Assembly (NCBI RefSeq): GCF_007558815.1
Contig: NZ_VLTJ01000046.1
Coordinates: forward strand, 1-64,000
DNA length: 64,000 nt
DNA from: Verticiella sediminum
GTDB taxonomy: Bacteria; Pseudomonadota; Gammaproteobacteria; Burkholderiales; Burkholderiaceae_B
Direction of reading: 5' to 3'
Shown here: piece after piece, positions 7,436 through 62,376 of the stretch
Layout: each line of letters starts with the position of its first letter
Numbering within the stretch: position 1 is the first letter of the stretch
Notes under the pieces: generated by a model
Database searches by the model: none
What the model was told of the DNA's origin: nothing
The model's input: the letters and a program-made list of their open reading frames with translations, nothing else
Made by a program: the position numbers and the translations under genes

Positions 7436-7683
7436 GGTGGCTCCTGGTTGCGGAAAGGCCGCGGACAGGCGGCCTGTCGACGCACTCTAAGGAGGCCGAT
7501 ACCTGCCGTGAACGATATCTTGGCTATTTCCAAATCCGTGATATGGATATGTAGGTACAAGTTTTCACGAGACCGGGCGTGCGGCCGGTGCCGACATTGC
7601 CGGCGGTGATAAGAACAGCACCAGCCTGTCGTTGGTGGCGGATGGCCGCGGGCATAGGATGAGCGGCATCGAACATCCATGTC
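7436..7683. promoter_or_regulatory. Divergent promoter region, amidohydrolase/ssuE
   Basis: These 248 bases separate two divergent transcription units and hold no gene. The central part (about 7500-7560) is clearly richer in A+T than its surroundings. It contains an imperfect inverted repeat, CCAAATC-cgt-GATATGG, with one mismatch, a possible regulator site. The regulator is not encoded next to it. Confidence 0.4.
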
Positions 7684-8319
7684 ATGCGATCCATGCGCTC
7701 AGCCCAGCCGTCCCCGCCTCCCCGCCCGTTCGTCCTCGCTCTGGCCGGCAGCGCATCCTCACGCAGCCGATCCACCGTCATGCTGCGATGTGCCGCCAAC
7801 TTGCTGCGCGAGCGCGGTGTGGCCGTCCAGGAAGTCGGTTTGCACGACTTTCCGCCGAGCGACCTGATCGAGGCGGTCCATGATGAGGGCAGCGCAGCGC
7901 GCTGGCTGCGCGATCTGGTCGCGCGGGCCGGTGGGCTGGTCGTCGCCTCGCCGGTCTACCAGGCTTCGTTCTCGGCCGCGCTCAAGGCCATGCTGGACCT
8001 GCTGCCGGAGCGCGCGCTGCAGGGCAAGGCCGTTCTGCCGCTGGGGTCGGCCGGCAGCACCGCACATCTGCTCGCGCTCGAATACAGCCTGAACCCCGTG
8101 CTGTCCGCGCTCGGCGCGCGTCACATCCTGGCGGGCGTCTACGCCGCCGGCGAGGACGTGACCTGGAACGCCGAGGGCGACGCGGTGCTGGGCGATCGCC
8201 TGGGCACCAGGCTGAACGCCTGCGTCGAGCGACTGCTCGAATTCGTCGTCCCGGTGCGCGCGCCGCTGCGCGCGGCCGACATCGGCCATCTGCTCGTGTC
8301 CGCCCGCTTCGGCGTGTGA
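7684..8319 (+). CDS. ssuE: NADPH-dependent FMN reductase, SsuE type
   Basis: A 211-residue flavodoxin-fold reductase that supplies FMNH2 to two-component monooxygenases. It shows the flavin-binding pattern LALAGSASSRSRST near residue 18, ASPVYQASFSAALKAMLDLL near 88-107 and PLGSAGSTAHLLALEYSL. All are typical of SsuE. An ATG three codons later is an equally possible start. It is divergent from the LLM monooxygenase operon and is followed by a molbindin, as in the Pseudomonas putida ssu cluster. Confidence 0.88.
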   Translation: MRSMRSAQPSPPPRPFVLALAGSASSRSRSTVMLRCAANLLRERGVAVQEVGLHDFPPSDLIEAVHDEGSAARWLRDLVARAGGLVVASPVYQASFSAALKAMLDLLPERALQGKAVLPLGSAGSTAHLLALEYSLNPVLSALGARHILAGVYAAGEDVTWNAEGDAVLGDRLGTRLNACVERLLEFVVPVRAPLRAADIGHLLVSARFGV

Positions 8320-8406
8320 CTACCGATCAAAAGCAAAGCGCAAACCTCGTCCACCTCGGCGGCGCAACCCCTGCCCGATCAATCCCCACCTCTGCCTGGA
8401 GTCCGC

Positions 8407-8622
8407 ATGTCCATTTCTTCCATCAACGCACGCAACCAGTTCCGCGGGCGCATCAAGGAGATCATCGAAGGCCCGGTCGTCTCGGAGGTCGATATCGAGA
8501 CCCCCGCCGGCCTGGTGACGTCGGTGATCACTACCCGCTCGGTGCACGACCTGGAACTGCGCGTGGGCTCCGAGGTGATCGCTTTCGTAAAGGCGACCGA
8601 GGTGTCGGTCGCCAAGCTCTGA
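8407..8622 (+). CDS. ssuF: Molbindin (TOBE/Mop domain protein), SsuF-like
   Basis: A 71-residue protein consisting of a single Mop/TOBE domain: NQFRGRIKEIIEGPVVSEVD, then GLVTSVITTRSV, then GSEVIAFVKATEVSVAKL at the end. Molbindins bind molybdate or related oxyanions as oligomers. A small protein of this kind, SsuF, belongs to the sulfonate cluster of P. putida and is needed there for growth on sulfonates. The position 87 bases after ssuE supports the same assignment. The domain is certain; the SsuF role is inferred from context. Confidence 0.8.
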   Translation: MSISSINARNQFRGRIKEIIEGPVVSEVDIETPAGLVTSVITTRSVHDLELRVGSEVIAFVKATEVSVAKL

Positions 8623-8635
8623 ACCGGGGGGGCGT

Positions 8636-8663
8636 CTGCGGCGCAGGCGAGACTGCGCCGCAG
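8636..8663 (+). terminator. Strong hairpin after the molbindin gene
   Basis: A perfect 11-bp stem CTGCGGCGCAG/CTGCGCCGCAG with a six-base loop lies 13 bases after the stop. No T-run follows, so termination is likely but not classical. Confidence 0.45.
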
Positions 8664-45089: not shown

Positions 45090-45237
45090 GCCATCGTCCG
45101 CGGCCCGCGGCATGGGCGGGCGGCCGCCTCGGCCGCCCGCGCGCTTCGTCCCCGCCATCCGCCCGGACGGCGGGCGCCCCGGCACGGGCCGCGGTACGCA
45201 TGGAATACTAGCGGCCGTGATTCCAGCGAGGCCAGGC

Positions 45238-45921
45238 ATGGCAGAGATTCCCCGGACTACCCTGAAAGTCGATCGCAGCGGCAAGACGCTGCGCGAGCTC
45301 ACTCTGGACAAGATGCGCGAGGCCATCTGGGCCGGCCATTTCCGGCCCGGTGACCGGCTCGTCGAGCGCAGCCTGTGCGAACAACTGGGTGTCAGCCGAT
45401 CGATCGTGCGGGAAGTCCTGCGCCACCTGGAGGCCGAAGGGCTGGTCGAGTCCGTTGCGCACCATGGGCCCGCCGTGGCCCGGCTGAGCGCCGAGCAGGC
45501 CGCGCAGATTTACGAGATACGCGCCCTGCTGGAAGGCCAGGCGGCCAGGCGGTGCGCCGAGACGGCCGACAATGCGGCCATCGACGCCCTGGCCGGGCTC
45601 AATGCCCGGATCCAGGAAGCCTTCGCCGCGGGCGATCACCTGGCCGTGATGAATCGCACGGCCGCCTTCTATGAGCGGCTTTTCCTCGAAGCCGGCATGA
45701 CCGTAGCCTGGGATGTCGTCCAGTCGCTCAATGCCCGCATCACGCACCTGCGAGCGCTGACCATCGGCTCGAGCGGCCGCCGCGGCGATGCGGCCGCCGA
45801 AATGGGCCGTTTGATCGATGCGCTGCGCCAGCACGATGCCCAGGCCGCGCAGCAGGCTTCGCAAGAGCATGTGCAGCGGGTCGCGCAGATCGCGGCAAGG
45901 CAGTTGGCGGCGCTGGCCTGA
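45238..45921 (+). CDS. GntR-family regulator, FCD subfamily
   Basis: A 227-residue regulator. The winged helix is LTLDKMREAIWAGHFRPGDR/LVERSLCEQLGVSRSIVREV. The all-helical FCD ligand domain includes YEIRALLEGQAARRCAE and NRTAAFYERLFLEAGM. The ATG at 45238 lies where the conserved domain begins; an earlier ATG in frame is not used. It probably controls the Bug-DUF1185-hydrolase genes through the TGGTATACCA palindrome. Confidence 0.87.
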   Translation: MAEIPRTTLKVDRSGKTLRELTLDKMREAIWAGHFRPGDRLVERSLCEQLGVSRSIVREVLRHLEAEGLVESVAHHGPAVARLSAEQAAQIYEIRALLEGQAARRCAETADNAAIDALAGLNARIQEAFAAGDHLAVMNRTAAFYERLFLEAGMTVAWDVVQSLNARITHLRALTIGSSGRRGDAAAEMGRLIDALRQHDAQAAQQASQEHVQRVAQIAARQLAALA

Positions 45922-46048: not shown

Positions 46049-46921
46049 TCAACCCCGGTGCGCGCCCCGGGCCTGCCGGTGCCATGCATCGACGGTATTA
46101 CGCAGCAGCATTGCAATCGTCATCGGCCCGACGCCGCCCGGCACAGGGGTCAGGCGGGCGGCCACGCGGCGGACGCTTTCGAAATCCACGTCCCCGCACA
46201 GGCTTCCCGCCAGCGCGCCTTGCTGCACCCTGTTGATGCCCACGTCGATGACGGTGGCGCCGGGTTTGACCATGTCTGCGGTGATCATCCTTGCGCGTCC
46301 CACCGCGACCACCAGGATGTCGGCCAAGCGTGTCAACGCCCCGATATCGGCGCTGCGGCTATGGCAGACCGTCACGCTGGCGTCGGCGGCGAGAAGCAGT
46401 GTCGCCAGAGGCTTGCCCACGATGAGGGATCGCCCGAGCACCACGGCATGGGCGCCGGCGAGCGGAACGTTCCCGGCTTGCAGCATGTGCATCACGCCCG
46501 CGGGCGTGCAGGGACGAAAGCCGGGCAACCCGCTCACCAGCCTGCCCTGGTTCAGCGCGCCAAAACCGTCGACGTCTTTGACCGGGTCGATCTCGGCTAG
46601 GGCTGCGAGCGTGTCCATGCCGCTCGGCAACGGCAGTTGCACGAGGATGCCATGGACGTCGCGCGCCGCGTTCAGGCGCCGGATCTCGGCGGCGATCTGC
46701 TCCTGGGTTGCGGTTGCAGGCAGGCTGACGTGGATGGACCGTATGCCGACCTCCTCGCAGGCCCGGATCTTGTGCTTCACGTAAACGGCGGAGGCCGGAT
46801 CCGCACCGACGAGCACGACGGCCAATCCGGGCGGCGACGCCTGGAACGGTGCCAGCTCGGTTCGAAGGTCCTCGCGCAGCTTTGCCGCGAGCCCGGACCC
46901 ATTCATGATCTCGGCAGTCAT
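46049..46921 (-). CDS. folD: Methylenetetrahydrofolate dehydrogenase/cyclohydrolase
   Basis: A 290-residue bifunctional enzyme converting methylene-THF to 10-formyl-THF. It shows LVGADPASAVYVKHKIRACE (catalytic lysine in YVKHK), ILVQLPLP, DPVKDVDGF and VLGRSLIVGKPLATLLL (NADP site), with the end TPVPGGVGPMTIAMLLRNT. It begins four bases after purU in the sox operon. It is therefore probably a catabolic copy, working on methylene-THF from sarcosine oxidase, rather than the housekeeping gene. Confidence 0.95.
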   Translation of the reverse strand: MTAEIMNGSGLAAKLREDLRTELAPFQASPPGLAVVLVGADPASAVYVKHKIRACEEVGIRSIHVSLPATATQEQIAAEIRRLNAARDVHGILVQLPLPSGMDTLAALAEIDPVKDVDGFGALNQGRLVSGLPGFRPCTPAGVMHMLQAGNVPLAGAHAVVLGRSLIVGKPLATLLLAADASVTVCHSRSADIGALTRLADILVVAVGRARMITADMVKPGATVIDVGINRVQQGALAGSLCGDVDFESVRRVAARLTPVPGGVGPMTIAMLLRNTVDAWHRQARGAHRG

Positions 46922-46925
46922 CGGC

Positions 46926-47786
46926 TCATGCGCTCTGTTGGAATACGACGGTTCGGTCGCCATTGAGCAGGACTCGGTGCTCCGCGTGCCACTGCACTGC
47001 ACGGGCGAGCACGACGTTCTCGACGTCTTTGCCGATTTTCACGAACGCTTCCGGTGACAGCCCGTGGCCCACACGCACCACGTCCTGCTCGATGATCGGC
47101 CCTTCGTCGAGGTCCGGTGTGACGTAGTGCGCCGTCGCACCGACCACCTTGACGCCGCGGGCATGCGCCTGGTGATACGGGCGCGCTCCCTTGAAACTGG
47201 GCAGAAACGAGTGATGAATGTTGATGCACCTGCCTTCCAGACGCTGGCACATGCGGTCGGAGAGCACTTGCATATAGCGCGCGAGCACGGTGAGCTCGGC
47301 TCCCGTCGTGCGTACCACGTCGAGAAAGCGGTCTTCCTGATCGTGTTTGTCCGCGGTCATCGGCAAATGGTGGAAGGGGATGCCGAACCAGTCGACCATG
47401 CGGCGCATGTCTTCGTGGTTGGAAACCACGCCCACGATGTCCACGTCGAGTTCATTGGCATGCCACTTGTGCAACAGATGGTTCAGGCAATGGCCCAGCC
47501 GCGACACCGCGATCACTACCTTCATCCGGTGGTCGGATTCGTACAACTGGATGTCCATGCCGAACTGCTGCACGACCGGCGCCAGCGCCTGCAGGAAATC
47601 GGCTCTCGATGTCGCATGAACGTCGGAGGGCCGGAACACCGTTCGCATGAAGAACATCTCGCTCGCGGTGTCGCCATGATGGGATGATTCGACGATGAAT
47701 GCGTCCGCAGCCGCCAGAGCCGAAGCGACGGCCGCAACGATCCCGACCGAGTCACGGCAGCGGATTGTCAGAATGAAGGACCTCAT
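46926..47786 (-). CDS. purU: Formyltetrahydrofolate deformylase
   Basis: A 286-residue enzyme releasing formate and THF from 10-formyl-THF. The N-terminal ACT domain is FILTIRCRDSVGIVAAVASA. The catalytic core has NIHHSFLPSFKGARPYHQA and GATAHYVTPDLDEGPII, with the family N, H and D residues. The start overlaps soxG as ATGA. Together with FolD it would complete oxidation of the one-carbon unit from sarcosine. Confidence 0.95.
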   Translation of the reverse strand: MRSFILTIRCRDSVGIVAAVASALAAADAFIVESSHHGDTASEMFFMRTVFRPSDVHATSRADFLQALAPVVQQFGMDIQLYESDHRMKVVIAVSRLGHCLNHLLHKWHANELDVDIVGVVSNHEDMRRMVDWFGIPFHHLPMTADKHDQEDRFLDVVRTTGAELTVLARYMQVLSDRMCQRLEGRCINIHHSFLPSFKGARPYHQAHARGVKVVGATAHYVTPDLDEGPIIEQDVVRVGHGLSPEAFVKIGKDVENVVLARAVQWHAEHRVLLNGDRTVVFQQSA

Positions 47787-48322
47787 TGCACGGCCTCCTG
47801 TCCGTGGGCAGTGTTGCGAGCGTGAACGAGCCACGACTCGAGATAGGCAAGCAGCGTTCTGTCGACGAGAATCCAGACTCGATCACACGCCGCGTTGAAA
47901 ATGAGTACTCCGATATCGGCCAGGCGAGCGCCGGCGATGCGCCCAGGCCGTGGCAAGGAGTGGGTATCGACGAGCTGCGCCAGCCAGTGCGTCAATCGGT
48001 GCCCTTCGATTTCGAGCACGGCCGTCTGCTCGGACACTTCCAGCGCGACACTGCTCGGGCTCTTTCCGGCCTGGAGTCGCTCCAGCAGGCTCGCAGCGAC
48101 CGCGGCTTGAGTGGAGACGACCAGCGCTTCCGATGGCGATCGCCACAACACTGCGGGGTCGCCTGCCTGTACCTCTCCCGCGTCTTGCGGCCAACGCAGG
48201 CCAAGTCGTTCGAAGACGGCTGGTACGTCGCGATCGCCAGCCATGCGGCGCACCGAAACGACCGAGATATCCGCCAGCGTGCGCCACTCGACCCGAGGGA
48301 CGGCAATACAGTCATTGACCAT
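47783..48322 (-). CDS. soxG: Sarcosine oxidase gamma subunit
   Basis: A 179-residue small subunit. Its match is in PAVLWRSPSEALVVST, AVLEIEGHRLTHWLAQLVDT and the GCV-T-like fold. The chosen ATG overlaps the soxA stop by 11 bases. The family is poorly conserved, so identification leans on gene order soxB-D-A-G. The subunit supports folate-dependent transfer of the methyl group. Confidence 0.85.
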   Translation of the reverse strand: MVNDCIAVPRVEWRTLADISVVSVRRMAGDRDVPAVFERLGLRWPQDAGEVQAGDPAVLWRSPSEALVVSTQAAVAASLLERLQAGKSPSSVALEVSEQTAVLEIEGHRLTHWLAQLVDTHSLPRPGRIAGARLADIGVLIFNAACDRVWILVDRTLLAYLESWLVHARNTAHGQEAVQ

Positions 48323-51248
48323 GGATACGCTCGTTGTTGGCATCGAAAAACGGTGTTTGAACCACTTCCACGTCCACGCACTTGCCGAAAGACCACGCGC
48401 GCAGCCGTTCGCCCATCCGGCTGGCGCCGCCCGCCAGTTGCGCAAGGGCAATCGGCTCGCCCAGGGTCGGGCTGAAATAGCTGCTGGTCACATGGCCTTG
48501 GGGCGCGTCGCCGCGTCCGCTGGCCCCCAGATGGGCTCCCACCGGGATCGGCGTTGCGCGGTCGACGGGCTTTATCCCCACCAACCCGGGTCTGAACGAG
48601 TCCAATGCCGCCGGCCGGAGCAAAGAGCGTCGGCCAACGAAGTTCGCCGGCTTCTTGCCGGGGCTGCGCCAAAGCCCGACATCCTGTGGCAGCGAAGTGC
48701 CGTCGGTGTCGGCGCCCACATGGATGAAGCCTTTCTCGGTGCGCAGGATCATGAGCGCTTCGATGCCGTACATGCCTACGTTCAGCGCCCGTCCTGCATG
48801 CCATAACCGGTTCAGCAGATGTTCGGTGCGGGAAGCCTGCAGATTGATCTCGTAGCCCAGCTCGCCGCTGAAGCTTGCGCGCAGCACGCGCAGTTGCTGC
48901 CCGTCCAGAGCGCCCTGTGCCATGGTCATGTGCGCCATGCGCTCCGGCGCGAAGGCGTCGTCCAGTCCGATGCTGTGCAACAGCCTCCACGCCAACGGTC
49001 CGGAGACCGTCACGTTGCCCCACTGGGCTGTGACCGGGCAGATGAGTACCTTCAAATGGGGATACTCGCATTGCAACCATTCTTCGAAGGCGAGCGCGGC
49101 CTGCTCCGCGCCGCCCGACGTGGTATTCACCCAGAAGTGATCGGGCCCCAGTCTGGACACGATGCCATCGTCAACGATCACGCCGTGCTCGCTCAATCGC
49201 ACCCCGTACCGGGCACCGCCGATCCTGAGCGTCGAGATCTGGCCCACGAACATCAGGTCCAGGAACTCCGCGGCGTCAGGGCCGTACACTGCGATCTTTC
49301 CCAGGGGGGTGCCGTCGAACAGGGCGACACTGTTGCGCACGTGGGCCGCCTCCCGTTGTGCCGCCGCATGCAGATCCTCTGCGGGCCGCGGATACGCCGC
49401 AGGCCGTTCCCATGAGCCGAATTCCTCGAACAATGCACCGCGTTCCGCATGGAAGCGGCGCGCCTGGAGGTGTCTGACCGGGTGCAGGCGCGCGCCTGTG
49501 CGACCCGCCGCAATGGCATTCAGCGTGACCGGCCGGTAGGGCGAGCGGAACTTCGTGGTGCCCACTTGTTGAGGCGCGCGATCCGTGGCCCGGCCCATCA
49601 GGACGATCGCGTTGACGTTGCTCGTCTTGCCCTGATCCGTGGCCATTCCTGTTGTCGTGTACCGCTTGAAATGCTCGATGGACCGGTAGTTCTCCGAAGC
49701 GGCGATCCGGATGTCGCGCACCGTGACGTCGTTCTGAAGGTCGACGAACTGCTTTGCCGGGTGTCGTTTGTACAGCGCGAGCGCGGCTGGCGGCGGCTGA
49801 TTGTCCGCCGGGACAGCGCCAAAGCCGACGCCTGGCGTCGGCGTCTTGGGCGCATGGCTCGTTCCTAGCCGGCCCACCGCGTCGGCGTGTTCCAGCGTTT
49901 GCTCGACGTCGAAAATGCCCGCGCAAGCCCCGACACTCGCCACACCGGCGAGTGGCTTGTCGGGCACGAACATCGAGCTTTCCTCGACCCACTTCAACGA
50001 GCCGCCCGATTGCGCATACAAGCTTACGTTCGGGGTGGCGCCTCCAGCGCTTGCGATGTTGTCGCAAGCCAGCCGCCGCAGCCGGCCGCCCGCCAGGTCG
50101 GCTATCGTGACTCCGCTCATCCCGGCGGCGCTGCCATGCACGGCGGTGATCGTGCTATCCGGATACCAGGCGATGTGAGCGGGGACGTCGACCACGCCGA
50201 TGTCGATTGCCTGCCGGCAGTCCACGATCGCGGCCACTTCGATGCCGGCAAGGGACAGGGTCGCCGCGATGGCGTAGGCGGCATCGCAGGCCGTTGCGAT
50301 CACGACGCGCTTGCCGCATGCCACGCCGTAAAGCGCTGCATAGCGTTCGAGCGCGCCGGCGAGCATCACGCCCGGGCGGTCGTTGTCCGGGAACAGCATT
50401 GGCCGGTCGAACGCACCGGTTGCAAGGACCACGTCGTGGGCTCGGATTCTTACCAGCCGCTCGCGCACCGGCGCTCCGGGCGCGCCGGTCTGCACTGCCG
50501 TGATCAGGCCATGGTCGTACGAGCCCAAGGCCGTTGTGCGCGTCAACAGGCGGCCGCCGGCGCGCTGAAAGTCCGCGAGCAGGGACTCGACGAGTGCCAT
50601 GCCGTTCGGGGCGCGCGCTACCTGCGCTGCCAGACGCCCGCCCGGCTCGAGGTCCGACTCGATCAGAACGACGCTTCGTCCCGCCTGCACCGCCGAGAGT
50701 GCGGTGCGTGCGCCGGCAAGGCCGGCGCCGATGACGAGAAGATCGGCGGCGAGCGAGATCTCGCCGTAGCGCTCGGGGTCTGCGTGTTCGCTCGGACGGC
50801 CGCTGGCGGCCAGTCGTCGGATGGCGGGCTCGAACCACTTCCAGTCGGGGCGGATGAAGGTCTTGTAGTAAAAGCCCGCCGGCAGGTAGGGCGAGACGAT
50901 GCCCAGGCCTGCGAGCAGGTCGTGCTTGAGGCTGGGCCAGCAGTTGCCGCTGCGCACGACGAGGCCGTCGGCGGCCGGTACTTCGGTCAGGCGGCTGTTG
51001 GGCGTGCGTGTGGATCCCGTGCCGATATCGGCTATGCCGGTCGGCTCTTCGGGCCCGCACGAGTAGATGCCGCGCGGGCGGTGCAGTTTATAGCTGCGGC
51101 CAACGAGCCGTATACCGTTGGCCAGCAGCGCGGACGCGACGGTGTCGCCCGCGAACGCATGGACGGACTGACCGTTGAACGAGAAGCGAAGGGCGGTTTC
51201 GCGGTCGATCCTCCCGCCCCAGGGGGGCGGCAAGCGCATGCTACTCAT
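48312..51248 (-). CDS. soxA: Sarcosine oxidase alpha subunit
   Basis: A 978-residue large subunit of heterotetrameric sarcosine oxidase. The first ~100 residues are a ferredoxin-like domain (FNGQSVHAFAGDTVASALLA). Next comes a dinucleotide-binding domain with VIGAGLAGARTALSAVQAG. The last ~370 residues are an aminomethyltransferase-like (GCV-T) domain (GVIVDDGIVSRLGPDHFWVN, FSGELGYEINLQA) that forms methylene-THF. The length is close to the usual 965-1000. It overlaps soxD by eight bases. Confidence 0.95.
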   Translation of the reverse strand: MSSMRLPPPWGGRIDRETALRFSFNGQSVHAFAGDTVASALLANGIRLVGRSYKLHRPRGIYSCGPEEPTGIADIGTGSTRTPNSRLTEVPAADGLVVRSGNCWPSLKHDLLAGLGIVSPYLPAGFYYKTFIRPDWKWFEPAIRRLAASGRPSEHADPERYGEISLAADLLVIGAGLAGARTALSAVQAGRSVVLIESDLEPGGRLAAQVARAPNGMALVESLLADFQRAGGRLLTRTTALGSYDHGLITAVQTGAPGAPVRERLVRIRAHDVVLATGAFDRPMLFPDNDRPGVMLAGALERYAALYGVACGKRVVIATACDAAYAIAATLSLAGIEVAAIVDCRQAIDIGVVDVPAHIAWYPDSTITAVHGSAAGMSGVTIADLAGGRLRRLACDNIASAGGATPNVSLYAQSGGSLKWVEESSMFVPDKPLAGVASVGACAGIFDVEQTLEHADAVGRLGTSHAPKTPTPGVGFGAVPADNQPPPAALALYKRHPAKQFVDLQNDVTVRDIRIAASENYRSIEHFKRYTTTGMATDQGKTSNVNAIVLMGRATDRAPQQVGTTKFRSPYRPVTLNAIAAGRTGARLHPVRHLQARRFHAERGALFEEFGSWERPAAYPRPAEDLHAAAQREAAHVRNSVALFDGTPLGKIAVYGPDAAEFLDLMFVGQISTLRIGGARYGVRLSEHGVIVDDGIVSRLGPDHFWVNTTSGGAEQAALAFEEWLQCEYPHLKVLICPVTAQWGNVTVSGPLAWRLLHSIGLDDAFAPERMAHMTMAQGALDGQQLRVLRASFSGELGYEINLQASRTEHLLNRLWHAGRALNVGMYGIEALMILRTEKGFIHVGADTDGTSLPQDVGLWRSPGKKPANFVGRRSLLRPAALDSFRPGLVGIKPVDRATPIPVGAHLGASGRGDAPQGHVTSSYFSPTLGEPIALAQLAGGASRMGERLRAWSFGKCVDVEVVQTPFFDANNERIHGQ

Positions 51249-51516
51249 CGACGTCTCCAGCGGCTGTGCCCATGCGATAGGTCTGCGTCACTTCGTGGGT
51301 GAGGGTGTCGCGCAGTACGTTGAACCATTGGCCGCAGCCGTAGGTGTGGCGCCAGCGTTCGCGATGCGGGCCAGCCGGGTTATCGCGCATGAGCAGATAG
51401 TCGGCCCATTCGTCGTCCGAGCAGGTCAGCGGGGGGCGCGTCAGATGTGCGGGACCCCCGCAGTGGAATTCGCTTTCCATGCGTGGTCCGCACCAGGGGC
51501 AGGTTAGAAGCATCAT
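51241..51516 (-). CDS. soxD: Sarcosine oxidase delta subunit
   Basis: A 91-residue zinc-binding subunit. It starts MMLLTCPWCGPR with a CxxC pair; RERWRHTYGCGQWFNVLRDT carries the further histidine and cysteine ligands. It is nested between soxB (6-base gap) and soxA (8-base overlap), the usual order. Confidence 0.93.
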   Translation of the reverse strand: MMLLTCPWCGPRMESEFHCGGPAHLTRPPLTCSDDEWADYLLMRDNPAGPHRERWRHTYGCGQWFNVLRDTLTHEVTQTYRMGTAAGDVDE

Positions 51517-51522
51517 TTGGCG

Positions 51523-52779
51523 TCAGTGTGCAATGCCGGCCGCAGCGGCTTCATCGATGAAGCGACCGCTGGAGAAGCGGCCTAGTTGGAACGGCTGCGC
51601 AAGCTCGTGCGTGCGGTCGGTCGCGAGTTGGTGCGCCAAGGTCCATCCGCCAACCGGTATGCCTTTGAAGCCGCCCGTGCCCCAGCCGCAGTTCAAATAG
51701 AGGCCGGTAACGGGCGTCGGCCCAATGATGGGGCTGGAGTCCTGGACCACGTCGACGATGCCCGCCCATTGCCGCATCAGGCGCAGGCGGCCAAGAGAGG
51801 GAAACATCTCGACCGTGGCCGCAACCACTTGCTGGGTAATGGCGAAGCTGCCGCGCTGGGCATAGGAGGGAAAGTGATCGAGTGCGCCGCCCATGACGAT
51901 TTCGCCCTTGTCGCTCTGGCTCCAGTACGCGCCGAGCGAGGGCGAAAGCGTCACCCGCTCCAGCACGGGTTTGACGGGTTCCGTCACCATCGCCTGCAAG
52001 GCGTAGCTCGTTACGGGCAGGCGAAGGCCTGCCCACTGCGCAATCCGGCTGCTGTGACCGGCCACGCATATCGCGACTTTGTCCGCGTGTATCGTGCCGA
52101 GCTCAGTGTGGACCGCCTTGACGACCCCATCTTGTATATCGAACCCAGTGGCCGCGCAGCCCTGGACGATGTCGACGCCCAATGCGCTTGCCCCCCGTGC
52201 GTACCCCCAGGCCACGGCATCGTGTCGGGCCGAGCCGGCGCGCTTCTGGATCAGCCCGCCGAGAATCGGAAACCTCGCGCTCGCCGAAAAATTCAGCCGG
52301 GGCTCGAGTTCCCGCACCTCTTTGGCGCTCAGCATCTCTGCATCCACCCGGTTGCTTTGCATCGCGTTTGCCCAACGCGCCTGCAGGTCCAGGTCATGGC
52401 GCGAATGCGCGAGCGTGATCATGCCGCGTTGGCTGAACATGATGTTGTAGTTCAGCTCGCGTGAAAGACCTTCATAAAGGCGCACGGAGAAGTCGTAGAG
52501 GCGCGCGCTTTCCGGGTAGAGGTAGTTCGACCGGATGATCGTGGTGTTGCGCCCGGTGTTGCCTCCCCCGATCCAGCCTTTCTCTATCACCGCCACGTTC
52601 GTGATGCCGTGGTTCTTGGCCAGGTAATAGGCGGTCGCCAAGCCTTGGCCGCCGCCGCCGATGATGATCACGTCATAGCGCTTCTTGGGCCTTGCATCTC
52701 GCCAGGCCGGGGCCCAATCGTCTTGATCGGCTCCAGCCGCGAACAGATTCCAGGCGGAGTAATGGGTTCGAGTGTGCAT
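51523..52779 (-). CDS. soxB: Sarcosine oxidase beta subunit
   Basis: A 418-residue flavoprotein subunit holding the FAD/FMN active site. The dinucleotide loop is YDVIIIGGGGQGLATAYYLA. IGGGNTGRNTTIIRSNYL carries the covalent-flavin region, and LYLNCGWGTGGFKGIPVGG ends the FAD domain. The start MHTRTHYSAWNLF matches family starts. No ribosome site is visible. A promoter with its -10 only six bases before the ATG is seen, so leaderless translation is possible. It is the first gene of soxBDAG-purU-folD. Confidence 0.95.
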   Translation of the reverse strand: MHTRTHYSAWNLFAAGADQDDWAPAWRDARPKKRYDVIIIGGGGQGLATAYYLAKNHGITNVAVIEKGWIGGGNTGRNTTIIRSNYLYPESARLYDFSVRLYEGLSRELNYNIMFSQRGMITLAHSRHDLDLQARWANAMQSNRVDAEMLSAKEVRELEPRLNFSASARFPILGGLIQKRAGSARHDAVAWGYARGASALGVDIVQGCAATGFDIQDGVVKAVHTELGTIHADKVAICVAGHSSRIAQWAGLRLPVTSYALQAMVTEPVKPVLERVTLSPSLGAYWSQSDKGEIVMGGALDHFPSYAQRGSFAITQQVVAATVEMFPSLGRLRLMRQWAGIVDVVQDSSPIIGPTPVTGLYLNCGWGTGGFKGIPVGGWTLAHQLATDRTHELAQPFQLGRFSSGRFIDEAAAAGIAH

Positions 52780-52799
52780 GGCGGAACTATATTTTAAAA

Positions 52800-52815
52800 G
52801 ATACAGTACTGTAAA
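52800..52815. promoter_or_regulatory. Regulon palindrome, site 1 (sox operon)
   Basis: GATACAGTACTGTAAA contains the perfect palindrome TACAGTACTGTA. It overlaps a likely sox promoter: -35 TTTACA (minus strand of 52811-52816) and -10 TATAGT (minus strand of 52786-52791). Confidence 0.7.
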
Positions 52816-52906
52816 CCCTATGTTGCCGGCCCGGTATGCCGAATTGGGTTGCCGCCACTCGAAATTTGCGTCGCTGAACGCCTCAATATGTTGGCTATTC
52901 TTAAAA

Positions 52907-52922
52907 GATACAGTAGTGTATC
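52907..52922. promoter_or_regulatory. Regulon palindrome, site 2 (dehydrogenase-tetR)
   Basis: GATACAGTAGTGTATC, a near-perfect palindrome with one central mismatch pair, lies 80 bases upstream of the dehydrogenase start. It shares TTAAAAGATACAGTA with site 1. Confidence 0.7.
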
Positions 52923-53002
52923 ATTTGGCCGAGGCGGTCGTCGTTCCGACGGCGCGACGTCGCGTCGGCGCGCTTTTGTCGTCCTTCCCATGAGGTCATG
53001 CA

Positions 53003-54046
53003 ATGCATCGAAGTCCCGACACTCTCTTTGCCCTGCCGGGTGAACCGCCGCACGAGCAGGTTTCCATGTTCTGCGACGCCGGCTCCGGGCTGCGCACGAT
53101 CATTGCCATTCACAGTACCGCGAGAGGGCCGGCATTCGGCGGGTGCCGGGTGTGGAGCTACGCGTCGGACGCTGATGCGCTGCGCGATGCGCTGCGGCTC
53201 TCGCATGGCATGAGCCTGAAGAATGCCCTGGCCGGCCTGCCGTTCGGCGGCGGCAAGGCCGTCATTCTCAAGCCGGTCGAGACGCCGGAGCGCGCGTCGT
53301 TGTTCCAGGCGTTCGGCAAGCGGGTCGATATGCTGGGGGGGCGCTACATCACGGCGGAGGACGTCGGCAGCACCACCGACGACATGAGGGCGGTGCAGCG
53401 CAATACGGCGTTCGTCAGCGGCATCCCGCGCGATGGCTCTTTTGGCGGAGACCCCTCGCCCAAGACCGCATGGGGGGTGTTTCTCGCCATCGACGAAGCG
53501 GTGCGGCACGTCATGAAGCGCCCGCTCGACGGTGTGACCGTGGCCGTGCAGGGACTGGGCTCCGTCGGGATGGCGCTGTGCCGGCATCTGCATGCCGCGG
53601 GTGCCCGGCTCAAGGTGTCGGATCTCGATCAGGATCGCGTGCGCTACGCGCAGTCGACCTTCGCGGCCATGCCGGTGGACTCGGATCAGATCCTGGCGAC
53701 GCCTTGCGACGTGCTGGCGCCCTGCGCGCTGGGCGGGGTGCTGAACGCTTCGAGCGTGCCGCGCGTTGCCGCGGCCATCGTCGTGGGGGCATCCAACAAT
53801 CAGTTGCTGACGCCGGCCGACGGCGACGCGCTGCACGCGCGAGGCGTGCTGTACCTGCCGGACTTTCTGGTCAATGCGGGCGGTATCATCAGCGCCGCCC
53901 GGGAGTATCTGGGTACCGGCGATGAGGCTGAGGTGATGCGCGAGATCGGGATGATTCGCCAGCGCGTGGCCGAATTGCTGGAACGCTCCGGGGGGCAGGC
54001 CCCGTTTCGTGTCGCTCAGCAATGGGCCGAGGCGTTGGTGGGCTAG
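53003..54046 (+). CDS. Leu/Phe/Val-type amino-acid dehydrogenase (ELFV family)
   Basis: A 347-residue NAD(P)-dependent amino-acid dehydrogenase. ARGPAFGGCRVWSY and MSLKNALAGLPFGGGKAVI carry the substrate-side glycine loop and catalytic lysines. VAVQGLGSVGMALCRHLHA is the dinucleotide loop. Length and motifs resemble leucine or phenylalanine dehydrogenase. It is divergent from soxB under a shared control region and is followed 17 bases later by the tetR gene. The substrate is probably an amino acid released in the same pathway, but which one is not clear. Confidence 0.88.
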   Translation: MHRSPDTLFALPGEPPHEQVSMFCDAGSGLRTIIAIHSTARGPAFGGCRVWSYASDADALRDALRLSHGMSLKNALAGLPFGGGKAVILKPVETPERASLFQAFGKRVDMLGGRYITAEDVGSTTDDMRAVQRNTAFVSGIPRDGSFGGDPSPKTAWGVFLAIDEAVRHVMKRPLDGVTVAVQGLGSVGMALCRHLHAAGARLKVSDLDQDRVRYAQSTFAAMPVDSDQILATPCDVLAPCALGGVLNASSVPRVAAAIVVGASNNQLLTPADGDALHARGVLYLPDFLVNAGGIISAAREYLGTGDEAEVMREIGMIRQRVAELLERSGGQAPFRVAQQWAEALVG

Positions 54047-54063
54047 ATGATAAGATTTCACGC

Positions 54064-54678
54064 ATGGCAAATCTCGTCCCGAAAACCTCGCCGGCCACCT
54101 GGGTGGAGACCGCCCGCAAGGCGCTGATAGAAGAGGGCGTGCACGGTGTCAAGGTCGACCGCCTGGCACAGCGTCTGGGCGTGACCCGTGGGGGCTTCTA
54201 CAAGCACTTCCAGGACCGCGGCGAGCTGCTCGAGCAGCTCTTGGCGCGATGGGAAAGCGAGAATCTTTTCTTGTTGGAAGGCCCCATCCCGAAGTCTGCC
54301 GCCGAGGCGGCGGTGATGCTCGAGCGCGTGAGCGAGAGGCTGATCACGGAGGACGGGTTCGACCCCAAGTATGACCTGGCCGTGCGGGACTGGGCGCGCA
54401 ACGACAAGCGCGCGGCCTGGGCGGTCGAACGGGTCGATGGCAAGCGGTTGGAAGGGCTCGAGCGGCTTTTCGTCGCGATGGGGTGCACCGCGGAAGAGGC
54501 CGCAGTCAGGGCCCGGGTGTACTACTACCATCAGATCGGCTACTACTCGATGGGGGTCAAGCAATCCGTATCCGAGCGAAAACGGCTCATGCCGGTGTAT
54601 ATGCAGATATTCCTCGGGCCTGAGCTCCTGCCGGCCAAAGCGAAAGCCGTCCTGTCCGGCAAGACGAAGACGACCTGA
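54064..54678 (+). CDS. TetR-family regulator
   Basis: A 204-residue regulator. The helix-turn-helix is ALIEEGVHGVKVDRLAQRLG/VTRGGFYKHFQDRGELLEQL. The rest is a helical ligand domain. The ATG at 54064 starts the conserved part; the upstream frame overlaps the dehydrogenase gene. It is the only regulator encoded within this region, so it is the best candidate to bind the three GATACAGTA palindromes and control its own operon. Confidence 0.87.
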   Translation: MANLVPKTSPATWVETARKALIEEGVHGVKVDRLAQRLGVTRGGFYKHFQDRGELLEQLLARWESENLFLLEGPIPKSAAEAAVMLERVSERLITEDGFDPKYDLAVRDWARNDKRAAWAVERVDGKRLEGLERLFVAMGCTAEEAAVRARVYYYHQIGYYSMGVKQSVSERKRLMPVYMQIFLGPELLPAKAKAVLSGKTKTT

Positions 54679-54722
54679 GCACGCCCGGGAGCGCCTGAAC
54701 GTGCTCGGATCGCTCGCGCGGA

Positions 54723-55700
54723 TCAATCCATTTTGATGTTGGCGGCGGTGACCACCTGGCCGACCTTCGCCAGGTCGGCGCGCATCATGTCTTCCATTTC
54801 CTGGGCCGAGTTGGCGAGCACTTCGGCGCTCAATGTGCGCATTTGCTCGAGCATGGCCGGCACGCGCAGTTGTTCCCGCACCGCGGACCCGATGAGTTCG
54901 ACGATATCGGCGGGTATTCCCTTGGGGCCCAGCAATCCCCACCAGGCAAGTCCCTCGATCGGCGTGCCGATCTGTTCTTCGATAGTGGGGATGTCCGGAA
55001 AGAGCCTCATGCGCTGTGTGCCGGTCACCGCTATCGCACGTAGCCGGCCGCTGCGTAGCAGTGGCTCGACCGCCGCGAGAGCGGGCACCGCCACATCCAC
55101 CTGCCCGCCCGCGAGGTCGGTGAGCGCCTGGTTCTGTCCGCGATAGGGTATGTGCACGATGGACGTGTTGCTCGCCTGTTTGATTTGCTCCATCACCAGT
55201 TGGCCAACGCTGCCGTTGCCGGCCGAGCCATAGTTCAGGCGTCCCGGGTTGCTGCGAGCAGCGGCGATCAGGCCTTTCAGGTCGACGATGTCCGATTGGG
55301 CGTTGACGACGATCGCGAGCTGCGTCTGCGCCACCATGCAGATCGGAGTGAAGTCCCGCAGCGGGTCGAAAGGCAGGTCGCGGTAGAGATGCGGATTGAT
55401 CACGTGATTGGCCGCCACCATCACCAGCGAATAGCCGTCTCCAGGCAATTTCGCGACGGTCGATGTGCCGACGATGCCGCTGGCCGCCGCAATGTTCTCG
55501 ACGGTCACCGGTACGTTCCAGGTCTTGGCGAGACCCTCCGCAAGCAAGCGCGATGTGCTGTCGGTGGCGGTCCCGACGGCGTACGGAACAATGATGCGCA
55601 CCGGGCGGGACGGATACGTTTCCGCCCCTGGCGCTGTAAAGCTGATCGGGGCCAGCGTAGCGGCGGCCAGCGATTTCAGGGCAGTTCTTCTCGAGATCAT
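54723..55700 (-). CDS. Bug-family (TctC) periplasmic binding protein
   Basis: A 325-residue protein. The N-terminus SRRTALKSLAAATLAPISF is a probable Tat signal. Mature segments VRIIVPYAVGTATDSTSRLL, LNYGSAGNGSVGQLVMEQI and HIPYRGQNQALTDLAGGQVD are Bug hallmarks. It starts 19 bases after the chorismate-mutase-like gene and ends the ggt operon. It is convergent with tetR. The ligand is unknown, presumably the substrate of the regulon. Confidence 0.9.
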   Translation of the reverse strand: MISRRTALKSLAAATLAPISFTAPGAETYPSRPVRIIVPYAVGTATDSTSRLLAEGLAKTWNVPVTVENIAAASGIVGTSTVAKLPGDGYSLVMVAANHVINPHLYRDLPFDPLRDFTPICMVAQTQLAIVVNAQSDIVDLKGLIAAARSNPGRLNYGSAGNGSVGQLVMEQIKQASNTSIVHIPYRGQNQALTDLAGGQVDVAVPALAAVEPLLRSGRLRAIAVTGTQRMRLFPDIPTIEEQIGTPIEGLAWWGLLGPKGIPADIVELIGSAVREQLRVPAMLEQMRTLSAEVLANSAQEMEDMMRADLAKVGQVVTAANIKMD

Positions 55701-55719
55701 GCAAGCTCCAGGAGGGGGG

Positions 55720-56064
55720 CTAGTCGCGCTCGGAGGTGGGCTCGACGTGGCGGTTGGCGAAGAGTTCTAACTGTCGGGGAATGCTGACGTCGAGAATGGC
55801 GTTGTAGACGGCGTGCGCGAGCGCGCGCGATACACCCGCGTCAGCGGCTTGCCGGTCGATGCGCGCCAACAGATTCGCGCGCAGCGGCAAGTCCGTGATA
55901 TCGGCGGCCGAGCGCTTGAACCGAACGGCTTCGGCCGCCAGACGTTCACGCGTTGCCAAGCCCGCGATGATCTGCCGATCGATCTCTGCGACGTCCCTGC
56001 GCACGGCGTCCAGCGTGCGTTCGACGGCGGGGCGCTCGTCGTTGTGCATGGCTGGCTTGCTCAT
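55720..56064 (-). CDS. Chorismate mutase type II (AroQ-like) domain protein
   Basis: A 114-residue all-helical protein. LDAVRRDVAEIDRQIIAGLA, then R-ERLAAEAVRFKRSAADI, follow the AroQ pattern with conserved arginines and a lysine. AroQ enzymes convert chorismate to prephenate; close relatives act as isochorismate-pyruvate lyases. It overlaps ggt by four bases, a context with no aromatic synthesis genes, so catalysis on chorismate is doubtful and another role is possible. Confidence 0.75.
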   Translation of the reverse strand: MSKPAMHNDERPAVERTLDAVRRDVAEIDRQIIAGLATRERLAAEAVRFKRSAADITDLPLRANLLARIDRQAADAGVSRALAHAVYNAILDVSIPRQLELFANRHVEPTSERD

Positions 56065-57776
56065 CGCGCGATGGCGTAGCTCGGGCGCCGGGGGTCGGCC
56101 GCGGCAAGCTGTACGGCGCGGTTCGGATCGTGCTGGATCAGGCACACGGCGCCGGCCCGCCACGTGCGCTCGGGCCAGGGCAGGGCGTCGTGCCCGAGCG
56201 ACTTGAGCGCGTCTATGGTCTCCTGCCCGATATCGGCCTCGACGGTGAGCCGCCCGGGTAGGCTCGCATGAGGTTCGAACGAATCCGGGAAGTCGTATGT
56301 GGCGAAGCGCGGCGCATCCACGGCTTGCTGTGGATCCATGCCGAAGGCCGTGATGTTCAGGAGCACCTGCGCCATCGCCTGAAGCTGCACGTCGCCGCCG
56401 GGCGTGCCCAAAGGCATGAGCGTGCCGTCGCTGAATATCGCCATCGCGGGGCTGGGCGTCAGCCGTGGTCGTTTGCCCGGCGCGACGCTGGATGCCTGCG
56501 CGGGATCGGCCCACGATTGCGAGCCGCGAGACGATGGGCAGATTCCGGTGCCGGGGATGACCGGGGTGTCCATGGATACGTCGCTGGGGGTCGCCGAGAT
56601 CGCGTTGCCGTGCCGGTCGACCACGCAGACATACGAGGTGTCGAGCGCGATGGATTCCGTGCCTGCCTCGGTCCACGGCTCGGTTGCACGCTCCGCACTG
56701 ATCGCCCGCGCGCGCCGGCTCGCGTGTTCGGCGGACAACAAGTCGTCCAGCGGCACGTGCACATGCGCGGGGTCGCCGAAGTATCGATGACGATCGACGA
56801 ACGCCGCTTTCATGGCTTCGGCGAGCAAGTGGATGTAGGCAACGCAGTTGTGGGCCTGCTCGCCGACCCGAAGTGCGTCGGCGATTCTGAGCATTTCTAC
56901 GAGGCAGGGGCCTTGGCACCAGGGCTGGGCGGTGTAGATGTCGTACCCGTCGAAAGCGGCACGGACCGGATCGCCGACCGGTGTGTGATAGCCATCCAGA
57001 TCTTCCGCCGTGAGCAGGCCGCCGTTCTCGCGGTGGTACTTGAGGATGGCTGCGGCAATGTCGCCCTTGTAGAAAGCGTCTCGTGCGGCGCGCAGGCCTT
57101 TGACCCGGCTGCCGCCGGCCGCCCGTTCGGCGTGCGCCATGTACTGAATCGTCCTGGCCAGATCGCGCTGTACGAACAACTCTCCCGGTTTTGGCGGGCG
57201 GCCATCGGGCAGATAGATCTGCGCATTCGATGGCCAGCGTGCGTACTCGGCCTCGAATGCCGAGATGATGTCCGACATCAGCGGATACATGATGAAGCCG
57301 TCACGGGCAAGGCGGATCGCTTCGTCCGCGACCTCGGAGAAGGTCATGGTGCCGAACTCGGCCAGTGCGGTGATCCACGCATCGGGCGCTGCCGGAATCA
57401 CGGTGCGCAACACGCCGTGTGGAATGGTGCCGCCGTGGTGTTTTGCGAAGTAATTGGGTGCCATCGACTTCGGCCAGTAGCCCAGCCCGGCAATTTCGCG
57501 CACGGTACGGGTCTGTGCGCTATAGACGAGCATGGGTGCCACGCCAGCGAAATTGACCACGTCGCTTTGCACCACCGACAGCACCATGCCGGCCGCCGCG
57601 CCTGCATCGACGGCGTTGCCGCCGGCCTCCAGGATGCGAAAGGCGGCTTGTGCCGCCAAGGGGTGGCCGGCGCAGACCGCGTGACGGGTGCCGGTGATCA
57701 ACGGCCGGCTTAGCGCGGCGCCGGATGCCGACACTGTGCGTTGAGTCAGGGCGTTGCCTATGCTATCGACAGACAT
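56061..57776 (-). CDS. Gamma-glutamyltransferase family protein, cytoplasmic
   Basis: A 571-residue Ntn-type enzyme. The early domain has HPLAAQAAFRILEAGGNAVDA. The predicted nucleophile is Thr380 in ALDTSYVCVVDRHGNAISAT, where precursor cleavage forms two subunits. The C-terminal part has GTPGGDVQLQAMAQVLLNI. It lacks a signal peptide, unlike classical Ggt. Family members hydrolyse or transfer gamma-glutamyl groups or related amides. AGGA precedes the ATG at 57776; the TTG at 57791 is rejected. It is first in the ggt-AroQ-Bug operon under palindrome site 3. Confidence 0.87.
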   Translation of the reverse strand: MSVDSIGNALTQRTVSASGAALSRPLITGTRHAVCAGHPLAAQAAFRILEAGGNAVDAGAAAGMVLSVVQSDVVNFAGVAPMLVYSAQTRTVREIAGLGYWPKSMAPNYFAKHHGGTIPHGVLRTVIPAAPDAWITALAEFGTMTFSEVADEAIRLARDGFIMYPLMSDIISAFEAEYARWPSNAQIYLPDGRPPKPGELFVQRDLARTIQYMAHAERAAGGSRVKGLRAARDAFYKGDIAAAILKYHRENGGLLTAEDLDGYHTPVGDPVRAAFDGYDIYTAQPWCQGPCLVEMLRIADALRVGEQAHNCVAYIHLLAEAMKAAFVDRHRYFGDPAHVHVPLDDLLSAEHASRRARAISAERATEPWTEAGTESIALDTSYVCVVDRHGNAISATPSDVSMDTPVIPGTGICPSSRGSQSWADPAQASSVAPGKRPRLTPSPAMAIFSDGTLMPLGTPGGDVQLQAMAQVLLNITAFGMDPQQAVDAPRFATYDFPDSFEPHASLPGRLTVEADIGQETIDALKSLGHDALPWPERTWRAGAVCLIQHDPNRAVQLAAADPRRPSYAIAR

Positions 57777-57793
57777 GGATGTCTTCCTCAAAA

Positions 57794-57809
57794 GATACAG
57801 TATTGTATT
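57794..57809. promoter_or_regulatory. Regulon palindrome, site 3 (gamma-glutamyltransferase operon)
   Basis: GATACAGTATTGTATT, preceded by CAAAA as in sites 1 and 2. It lies 17 bases upstream of the start codon. TACAAT on the minus strand inside the site could be the -10 element. Confidence 0.7.
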
Positions 57810-58021
57810 TTTTTGATTATTCTACTCGGCCTCAAATAGTGCAAACATCCGGCGCAGAAACCTTGCGGAAAACGGACATTCAGCCCGTTCGTTACGATCC
57901 GGGCGTTTATTCATGGGTGTATTTCTTGGGTCTGTCCCCGAGGCTATGCAAGCGGGCACGGGGCTGCCCCGCTACCCCGGGGGCTTTCGTTCCACCATCC
58001 GCGGCCAGGCAAAATACGGCG

Positions 58022-58107: not shown

Positions 58108-62376
<4,269 letters not shown>

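Follow-up and report, generated by a model that had tools for sequence, protein, structure and literature searches.

A probable TetR regulon with three operators around a divergent sarcosine-oxidase-type cluster of Verticiella sediminum, and its link to one branch of SoxB

Among the closest described relatives of the locus considered here are the glyA-soxBDAG-purU operons of glycine-betaine catabolism, in which four sox subunit genes are followed by purU and, in the portions of PMC3691474 and PMC12093977 used here, control is ascribed to the AraC-type GbdR and SouR or an XRE-type regulator is adjacent. Sox-type four-subunit enzymes may also demethylate an N-methyl amino acid other than sarcosine, as with the N-methylglutamate dehydrogenase that is encoded by mgdABCD or by soxBDAG-like genes in Methylocella and that lies with gmaS and the N-methylglutamate synthase genes (PMC8292978, in the part on these genes). 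Control of a methylated-amine pathway by a member of the TetR family is described for the creatine/sarcosine genes of Corynebacterium, where AmtR is a central nitrogen regulator (PMC8864220, in the part on AmtR). We analysed a stretch of 64,000 nucleotides of Verticiella sediminum (contig NZ_VLTJ01000046.1, positions 1-64,000; the window), which contains an eleven-gene cluster with soxBDAG, its own tetR and three copies of a 16-base palindrome. Like the glycine-betaine operons, this cluster has four sox subunits and then purU, but its regulator is a TetR, folD stands in place of glyA, and hydrolase, AroQ-like, dehydrogenase and Bug genes are added; neither an AraC-type regulator nor glyA occurs among the eleven genes, to which this check was confined. 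The likeness to N-methylglutamate dehydrogenase is drawn from its description, and gmaS and the N-methylglutamate synthase genes are absent from the eleven genes, whereas the difference from AmtR is that homologues of the window TetR adjoin their likely targets. Among the open-licence papers listed in our searches, none concerned this operator or the control of sarcosine or N-demethylation genes by a TetR.

With a probability of roughly 0.8, we consider the window TetR (54064-54675, plus strand, stop codon at 54676-54678) to be the regulator that belongs to the three palindromes, and most likely a repressor, so that one signal would switch three units. The position of the sites, their placement at promoters, their conservation and the pairings of operator with TetR and of TetR with SoxB come from sequence and its comparison between genomes. 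In a motif scan, GATACAGTAnTGTATC has three copies in the window and none besides: GATACAGTACTGTAAA at 52800-52815 (operator 1, minus strand), GATACAGTAGTGTATC at 52907-52922 (operator 2, listed without a strand) and GATACAGTATTGTATT at 57794-57809 (operator 3, minus strand). When up to three mismatches are allowed, the six matches are the same three places read on both strands, against a mean of 0.15 and a maximum of 2 in 100 dinucleotide shuffles. The three palindromes of the original prediction and its statement that the window holds no other copy are thus confirmed, far above the shuffle expectation, and the AAAAG flank that it described is real, being part of a 27-nucleotide repeat family that heads the direct repeats listed for 52700-57900, with the nuance that at 52907 the conserved CTTTT flank faces soxB and points away from the dehydrogenase gene.

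Half-sites ATACA and TGTAT are also present in the Escherichia coli AcrR site, TACATACATTTGTGAATGTATGTA, where they are 8 bases apart rather than 4 as here (PMC10597343, in the part on this site); AcrR shares the TetR_N domain with the window TetR, the neighbours of which are catabolic and not efflux genes. The window TetR matches the curated AcrR and MtrR models among others, in both cases far under the cut-off. NalC of Pseudomonas aeruginosa is a TetR-type repressor. Its probe includes the string ACAGTACTGT, but the repeat is in another register, AGAACTGT...ACAGTACT, and altering the left arm alone removed most binding (PMC3290565, in the part on this probe).

TetR homologues at E <= 1e-15 were found in 26 of the 268 genomes of the family, its own genome included, a count that rests on TetR and from which clusters without TetR would escape; one of these genomes, Bordetella sp. 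BOR01, has a TetR that is about 81-82% identical. A scan of named genomes with two N-terminal stretches of TetR only gave one locus, again that of BOR01, and a TetR search of 101 relatives at E <= 1e-25 gave the own genome only, BOR01 not being among the matches listed. The BOR01 cluster has 10 of the 11 genes in the same order and orientation, with identities of 79% for the protein of the gamma-glutamyltransferase (GGT) family, 60% for the AroQ-like protein, 81% for Bug, 75% for the dehydrogenase, 88% for SoxB, 78% for SoxD, 74% for SoxA, 54% for SoxG, 81% for PurU and 82% for TetR; a folD homologue was not found in it at E <= 1e-5. The operators before soxB and before the GGT-family gene, taken with their CTTTT tails, agree at 19/20 bases between the window and BOR01 and are the best conserved stretches of these promoters, of which the aligned DNA around the two sites is 53% and 51% identical, respectively. 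Operator 1 of BOR01 reads TTGACAGTACTGTATCTTTTA, the spacing of 107 bases between operators 1 and 2 is the same in both genomes, and operator 2 is degenerate in BOR01 (3 mismatches). The flank-extended motif ATACANNNNTGTATCTTTT has six matches in BOR01, with four sites in the cluster and one match elsewhere. An additional operator copy is found in BOR01 (L040:5029-5143), in opposite orientation to the GGT-family operator and about 114 bases upstream of it, and has no counterpart in the window. The GC content at third codon positions (GC3) of the listed BOR01 cluster genes is 0.61-0.69, below the 0.84-0.90 of the four larger frames to the left, and the cluster therefore looks acquired; its right-hand limit is unclear, the first frame on that side having a value of 0.68.

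The association of this TetR family with one branch of SoxB is, judging from these comparisons, a more interesting result than the regulon. We used the 31 best listed SoxB matches, the window left out, of more than 100 listed from 398 Pseudomonadota genomes, and scored TetR as present at E <= 1e-24 with at most seven candidates per genome, a setting that weaker relatives would escape; the TetR and SoxB samples, of 398 genomes each and with recurring handles, were taken as the same sample. All of the best 11 SoxB (57-64% identical) have a homologue of the window TetR at 0.6-4.3 kb, and among the next 20 one has such a homologue within 5 kb and two have it at 8 and 11 kb. An operator of the window type (class A, ATACA-N4-TGTAT) or of a second type (class B, TGGACA-N4-TGTCCA) lies within 1.5 kb of 6/11 TetR-linked SoxB loci, versus none of the 18 lower-ranked loci examined. 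Seven of 11 plasmid SoxB at 59-62% identity were examined, and every one has an adjacent TetR homologue. In a tree of 18 SoxB, ten that are TetR-linked split with a support of 100/99 from seven of the eight others, the eighth, from Paracoccus, being on the TetR side without such a TetR within 3.5 kb.

This split bears on a reading in which the regulation is as proposed but SoxBDAG acts as an ordinary sarcosine oxidase, or as the N-methylglutamate dehydrogenase known from the methylamine pathway, which we regard as rather unlikely. SoxB (51523-52779, minus strand) does exceed its curated cut-off (TIGR01373, 630 bits for 529), and it shares 54-58% identity with eight plasmid-borne SoxB that have no such TetR, some of which lie with GlxA-type regulators or have BCCT and ring-hydroxylase neighbours; soxBDAG-like genes with a substrate other than sarcosine are, in addition, already known (PMC8292978, same part). 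Besides the tree, the other subunits speak against it: SoxA (48312-51248, minus strand; Pfam SO_alpha_A3 and GCV_T) and SoxG (47783-48322, minus strand) are well under their curated cut-offs, with 1021 bits for 1164 (TIGR01372) and 37 for 144 (TIGR01375), and SoxD (51241-51516, minus strand; Pfam SoxD, 1.5e-35) is slightly under, with 111.5 for 116.5 (TIGR01374); so does the absence from the eleven genes of glyA and of the synthase genes already mentioned. The locus thus has the gene order soxB, D, A, G and the folate-binding alpha subunit of heterotetrameric sarcosine oxidases, with a beta subunit over the cut-off, divergent alpha and gamma subunits and a gamma subunit recognised by a weak match and its position; no Pfam family was found in the SoxG-type protein at E <= 0.001.

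The soxB of the cluster is the only match of the genome at E <= 1e-30 and its folD (46049-46921, minus strand) is the second copy of the genome, which fits disposal of a methyl group as methylene-tetrahydrofolate; the start of folD was picked after the stop of purU, and a longer frame begins at 46963. The purU gene (46926-47786, minus strand) codes for a formyltetrahydrofolate deformylase (TIGR00655, 322 bits for a cut-off of 286). The dehydrogenase (53003-54046, plus strand) is of the Glu/Leu/Phe/Val (ELFV) type and of the Leu/Phe/Trp kind, in the same family as leucine dehydrogenases and the ScyB-type tryptophan dehydrogenase (E 3e-91 to 8gxd), but it reaches only 297 bits in the ScyB model, the cut-off of which is 600, and its substrate is for this reason left unassigned. 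The product of the GGT-family gene (56061-57776, minus strand) is an Ntn hydrolase (Pfam G_glu_transpept, 7e-106) under the curated gamma-glutamyltransferase cut-off (TIGR00066, 265 bits for 358). Aligned pairwise to E. coli GGT, it keeps the nucleophile Thr (DTSYVCVVD) and the GTPGG turn, and the gamma-glutamyl-binding residues are replaced, some columns of this alignment being uncertain; we take these residues to be Arg114, Asn411, Asp433 and Ser462, and the nucleophile to be Thr391. The AroQ/chorismate-mutase-type small protein (55720-56064, minus strand; Pfam CM_2, 3.5e-10) has isochorismate lyase PRK07075 as nearest curated family (35.8 bits, under the cut-off of 126), and the Bug/TctC-type periplasmic binding protein (54723-55700, minus strand) matches Pfam TctC at 1.3e-69.

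From this gene content and from the GGT-family, dehydrogenase, Sox and folate assignments, we infer that a compound is taken up and its amide bond cleaved, with N-demethylation and oxidation of the amino acid set free as the further steps. Tentatively, and at less than even odds, the SoxBDAG branch would be specialised for an amide-delivered N-methylated amino acid other than sarcosine, and would be inherited with its own TetR family having two operator types (helices TRG and SRS/SRT), a two-residue change of the helix re-aiming the repressor while the pathway was kept. A further possible amide-cleaving partner, an M20-family hydrolase, is encoded near the sox operon of another locus, L118.

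A promoter scan of 52760-53020 found a single sigma-70-like promoter, TTTACA-18-TATAGT on the minus strand from 52815 to 52786, with a -35 box that coincides with the outer end of operator 1 and a -10 box ending 6 bases ahead of the soxB ATG. The GGT operon has a promoter-like site, TTTGCA-18-AATAAT (57845-57816), which ends 6 bases before operator 3, so that this operator lies at about the transcription start; each of the two stretches searched gave one promoter-like site, shuffles of each averaging 0.2. Operator 1, which overlaps the -35 hexamer, is kept in BOR01 and AGAATAAT is likewise kept there. The placement of operators 1 and 3 at promoter-like sequence suits repression. A clear ribosome-binding site was not seen before soxB (52786-52779), and because the -10 box is 6 bases from the ATG as well, its message may be leaderless.

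Operator 2, 107 bases from operator 1 and between soxB and the dehydrogenase-tetR pair, is less easily placed: it lies about 80 bases ahead of the dehydrogenase start, no plus-strand promoter for this gene was found by the scan of 52760-53020, and its CTTTT flank is directed to soxB. It may serve the dehydrogenase-tetR unit or act as a second operator of soxB. These features would suit a TetR that is an activator, or a repressor at one promoter and an activator at another, which we nevertheless find improbable, as operators 1 and 3 both overlap positions of the core promoter, where repressors usually act, and TetR proteins are mostly repressors.

Outside this cluster we considered 55 TetR homologue loci, 26 in the family (one being the own-genome paralogue) and 29 from the 398 Pseudomonadota genomes, and counted a site when it had at most one mismatch and was within 1.5 kb. 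A site is present at 14/55 loci, and 59 control draws of 44 distinct palindromes gave 0-4 loci (0 in 44 draws, 1 in 12, 2 in 2 and 4 in 1, the palindrome of that one draw closely resembling the motif). Exact ATACAGTACTGTAT adjoins homologues in Aminobacter and Pseudosulfitobacter plasmids, and in four other genomes. At L118, where the TetR is 39% identical, ATACAGTGCTGTAT is 37 bases ahead of a divergent soxBDAG operon, and L117 (TetR 42% identical) has sites ahead of purU/tetR and where a Rieske ring-hydroxylase gene begins; at a distance of 7 kb there is part of soxA, and at 11 kb soxB. Other homologues adjoin a nucleoside hydrolase and a 2OG oxygenase or FAD oxidoreductase, and the TetR family is therefore not confined to sox. 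An exact-palindrome scan with the outer bases free did not set the motif apart, as it gave the ACA core at 5/55 loci and other cores at up to 8. Among dehydrogenase homologues from 399 genomes of the order, 0/18 non-window loci (L061-L078) had a site with at most two mismatches within 1.5 kb on each side, and neither the window cluster nor the site was found in the four plasmid records examined (43-55% identical) out of 62 that match the GGT-family protein.

A second operator type accompanies part of this TetR family. Six operons of Shinella, Sinorhizobium and Ensifer, with TetR 31-40% identical, are without the window motif; five of them have the class B site before soxB, once with a mismatch, and the sixth (L140) has neither site. 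In the recognition helix, which is VTRGGFYKHF in the window TetR, all 23 class A rows read TRG and all 9 class B rows read SRS or SRT, among 32 labelled rows; the class A rows take in L118 (the same protein as L089), L012 (labelled via the larger locus L040) and L023 (one weak site), and several betaproteobacterial ones depend on a looser pattern. This agreement of helix and operator is suggestive, and TGGACATTAGTGTCCA is a predicted non-target of the window TetR. At L118 (11845-15026), a second TetR homologue is divergent from a gene for an 804-residue protein that resembles dimethylglycine dehydrogenase (domains DAO, FAO_M and GCV_T); two class-B-like sites separate the two genes, and the class A sox operon is in the same stretch. 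On a Gemmobacter fulvus plasmid (L123; 4069, 6511-8660), a gene with the annotation trimethylamine methyltransferase family is followed by a TetR homologue and has an exact class B site 2.4 kb upstream, possibly a further tie of the TetR family to N-demethylation.

The genome-wide scan (6,001,989 bases, 46 contigs) placed ATACAGTANTGTAT, with at most one mismatch, at five places, so that the motif is not a common repeat; three are the window sites, the fourth (C17:24256-24269) is upstream of a TetR paralogue and the fifth (C21:169709) is within a coding frame. The extended motif, at up to two mismatches, has seven matches versus one for the reversed pattern: five at the three window sites, one upstream of the same paralogue and one elsewhere. 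This paralogue (locus L037, 31-32% identical, matched segment starting at C17:24344) has close sites of its own, ATACACATGTGTAT and ATGCAATACTGTAT, at C17:24117-24269, which make cross-talk between both regulators possible. It probably reads a similar sequence and may cross-bind; that it, or some other regulator of the genome, is what binds the window sites, the local TetR acting elsewhere or on itself, we nonetheless judge highly improbable, since the sites accompany the local TetR and its neighbours in BOR01 too and those of the paralogue differ from them in sequence (ATACACATGTGTATGTTTT and ATGCAATACTGTATGG). That the palindromes are chance or the remnant of a general or mobile repeat we reject as extremely unlikely, although the 268 family genomes have two exact 16-base matches and one of them stands before another gene, given their rarity in the genome, the 6 matches for 0.15 expected, the 7 to 1 excess of the extended motif and the conservation in place in BOR01.

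Several observations weigh against the TetR regulon as we propose it, or against its extension to the family. At two mismatches, ATACAGTANTGTAT gives 9 forward and 8 reverse matches in the whole genome, and the reversed pattern 6 and 9, which is not above background, and in BOR01 the reversed extended pattern has three matches. The exact copy before another gene, in G283, is ahead of a gene with no tie to the window TetR. Most homologue loci (41/55) have no site, and the looser ATACANNNNTGTAT is less specific, with 18/55 loci versus up to 11 for a shuffled half-site. Neither operator occurs at 5/11 TetR-linked SoxB loci, nor at a Roseovarius operon (L121, helix TPG); the rows without a site include five further ones that read TRG and 17 that read SRS or SRT, and the A/B switch occurs once on the tree, with no independent repetition. 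The dehydrogenase promoter missed by the scan belongs here too, and the structure model of TetR was poor (pLDDT 63.6), too weak for a fold search, and was not used. In G283, a tandem pair of class A palindromes immediately precedes an ATG (L055:1178-1216).

Taking the window TetR as repressor of its three sites, we infer the binding, the repression and the inducer as follows, together with the order of the pathway and its substrate. A TetR dimer on operator 1 would cover the -35 box of soxB, one on operator 3 would sit where transcription of the GGT-family operon begins, and one on operator 2 would govern the dehydrogenase-tetR unit, an autoregulation, and might pair with operator 1, which is about ten helical turns away. 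An N-methylated compound or a product of the pathway would release TetR, and this would turn on uptake (Bug) and amide cleavage (GGT-family Ntn hydrolase), N-demethylation by the divergent heterotetramer of the sarcosine-oxidase type, oxidation by the ELFV dehydrogenase of the amino acid released, and methyl disposal by FolD and PurU. Of the original prediction as a whole, the three-site regulon with its own TetR inside and eleven genes in three units is supported by comparison, through the BOR01 sites, the TetR-operator pairing and the SoxB linkage; gamma-glutamyl amides or theanine as shared substrate find no support and are given up as a firm claim, since in its alignment to E. coli GGT the GGT-family protein is without the usual gamma-glutamyl-binding residues.

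The three units are a minus-strand one of closely packed soxB, D, A, G, purU and folD, a plus-strand one of the dehydrogenase gene and tetR, and a second minus-strand one of the GGT-family, AroQ-like and Bug genes. The TetR_N domain of the regulator (PF00440) was found at 3.5e-11, with 43.1 bits for a cut-off of 24, and it has homologues with a conserved operator. The cluster lies directly past the end of an rpoC-like gene (58108-62376), and because its GC3 (0.71-0.84) is below the 0.91 of this gene, an insertion at this place is suggested. Just past folD, on the opposite strand, is a GntR/FCD-type regulator (45112-45918).

The proposed regulon itself is a new case of a familiar type of switch. 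What it offers beyond this is a likely regulator and operator for a widespread branch of sarcosine-oxidase-type operons, for which we found no regulator described in the open-licence literature. The TetR and its 16-base site would be a ready reporter for finding the natural substrate among N-methyl compounds, and the two operator types, with their two helices, may be a clean case of a TetR repressor changing its DNA target.

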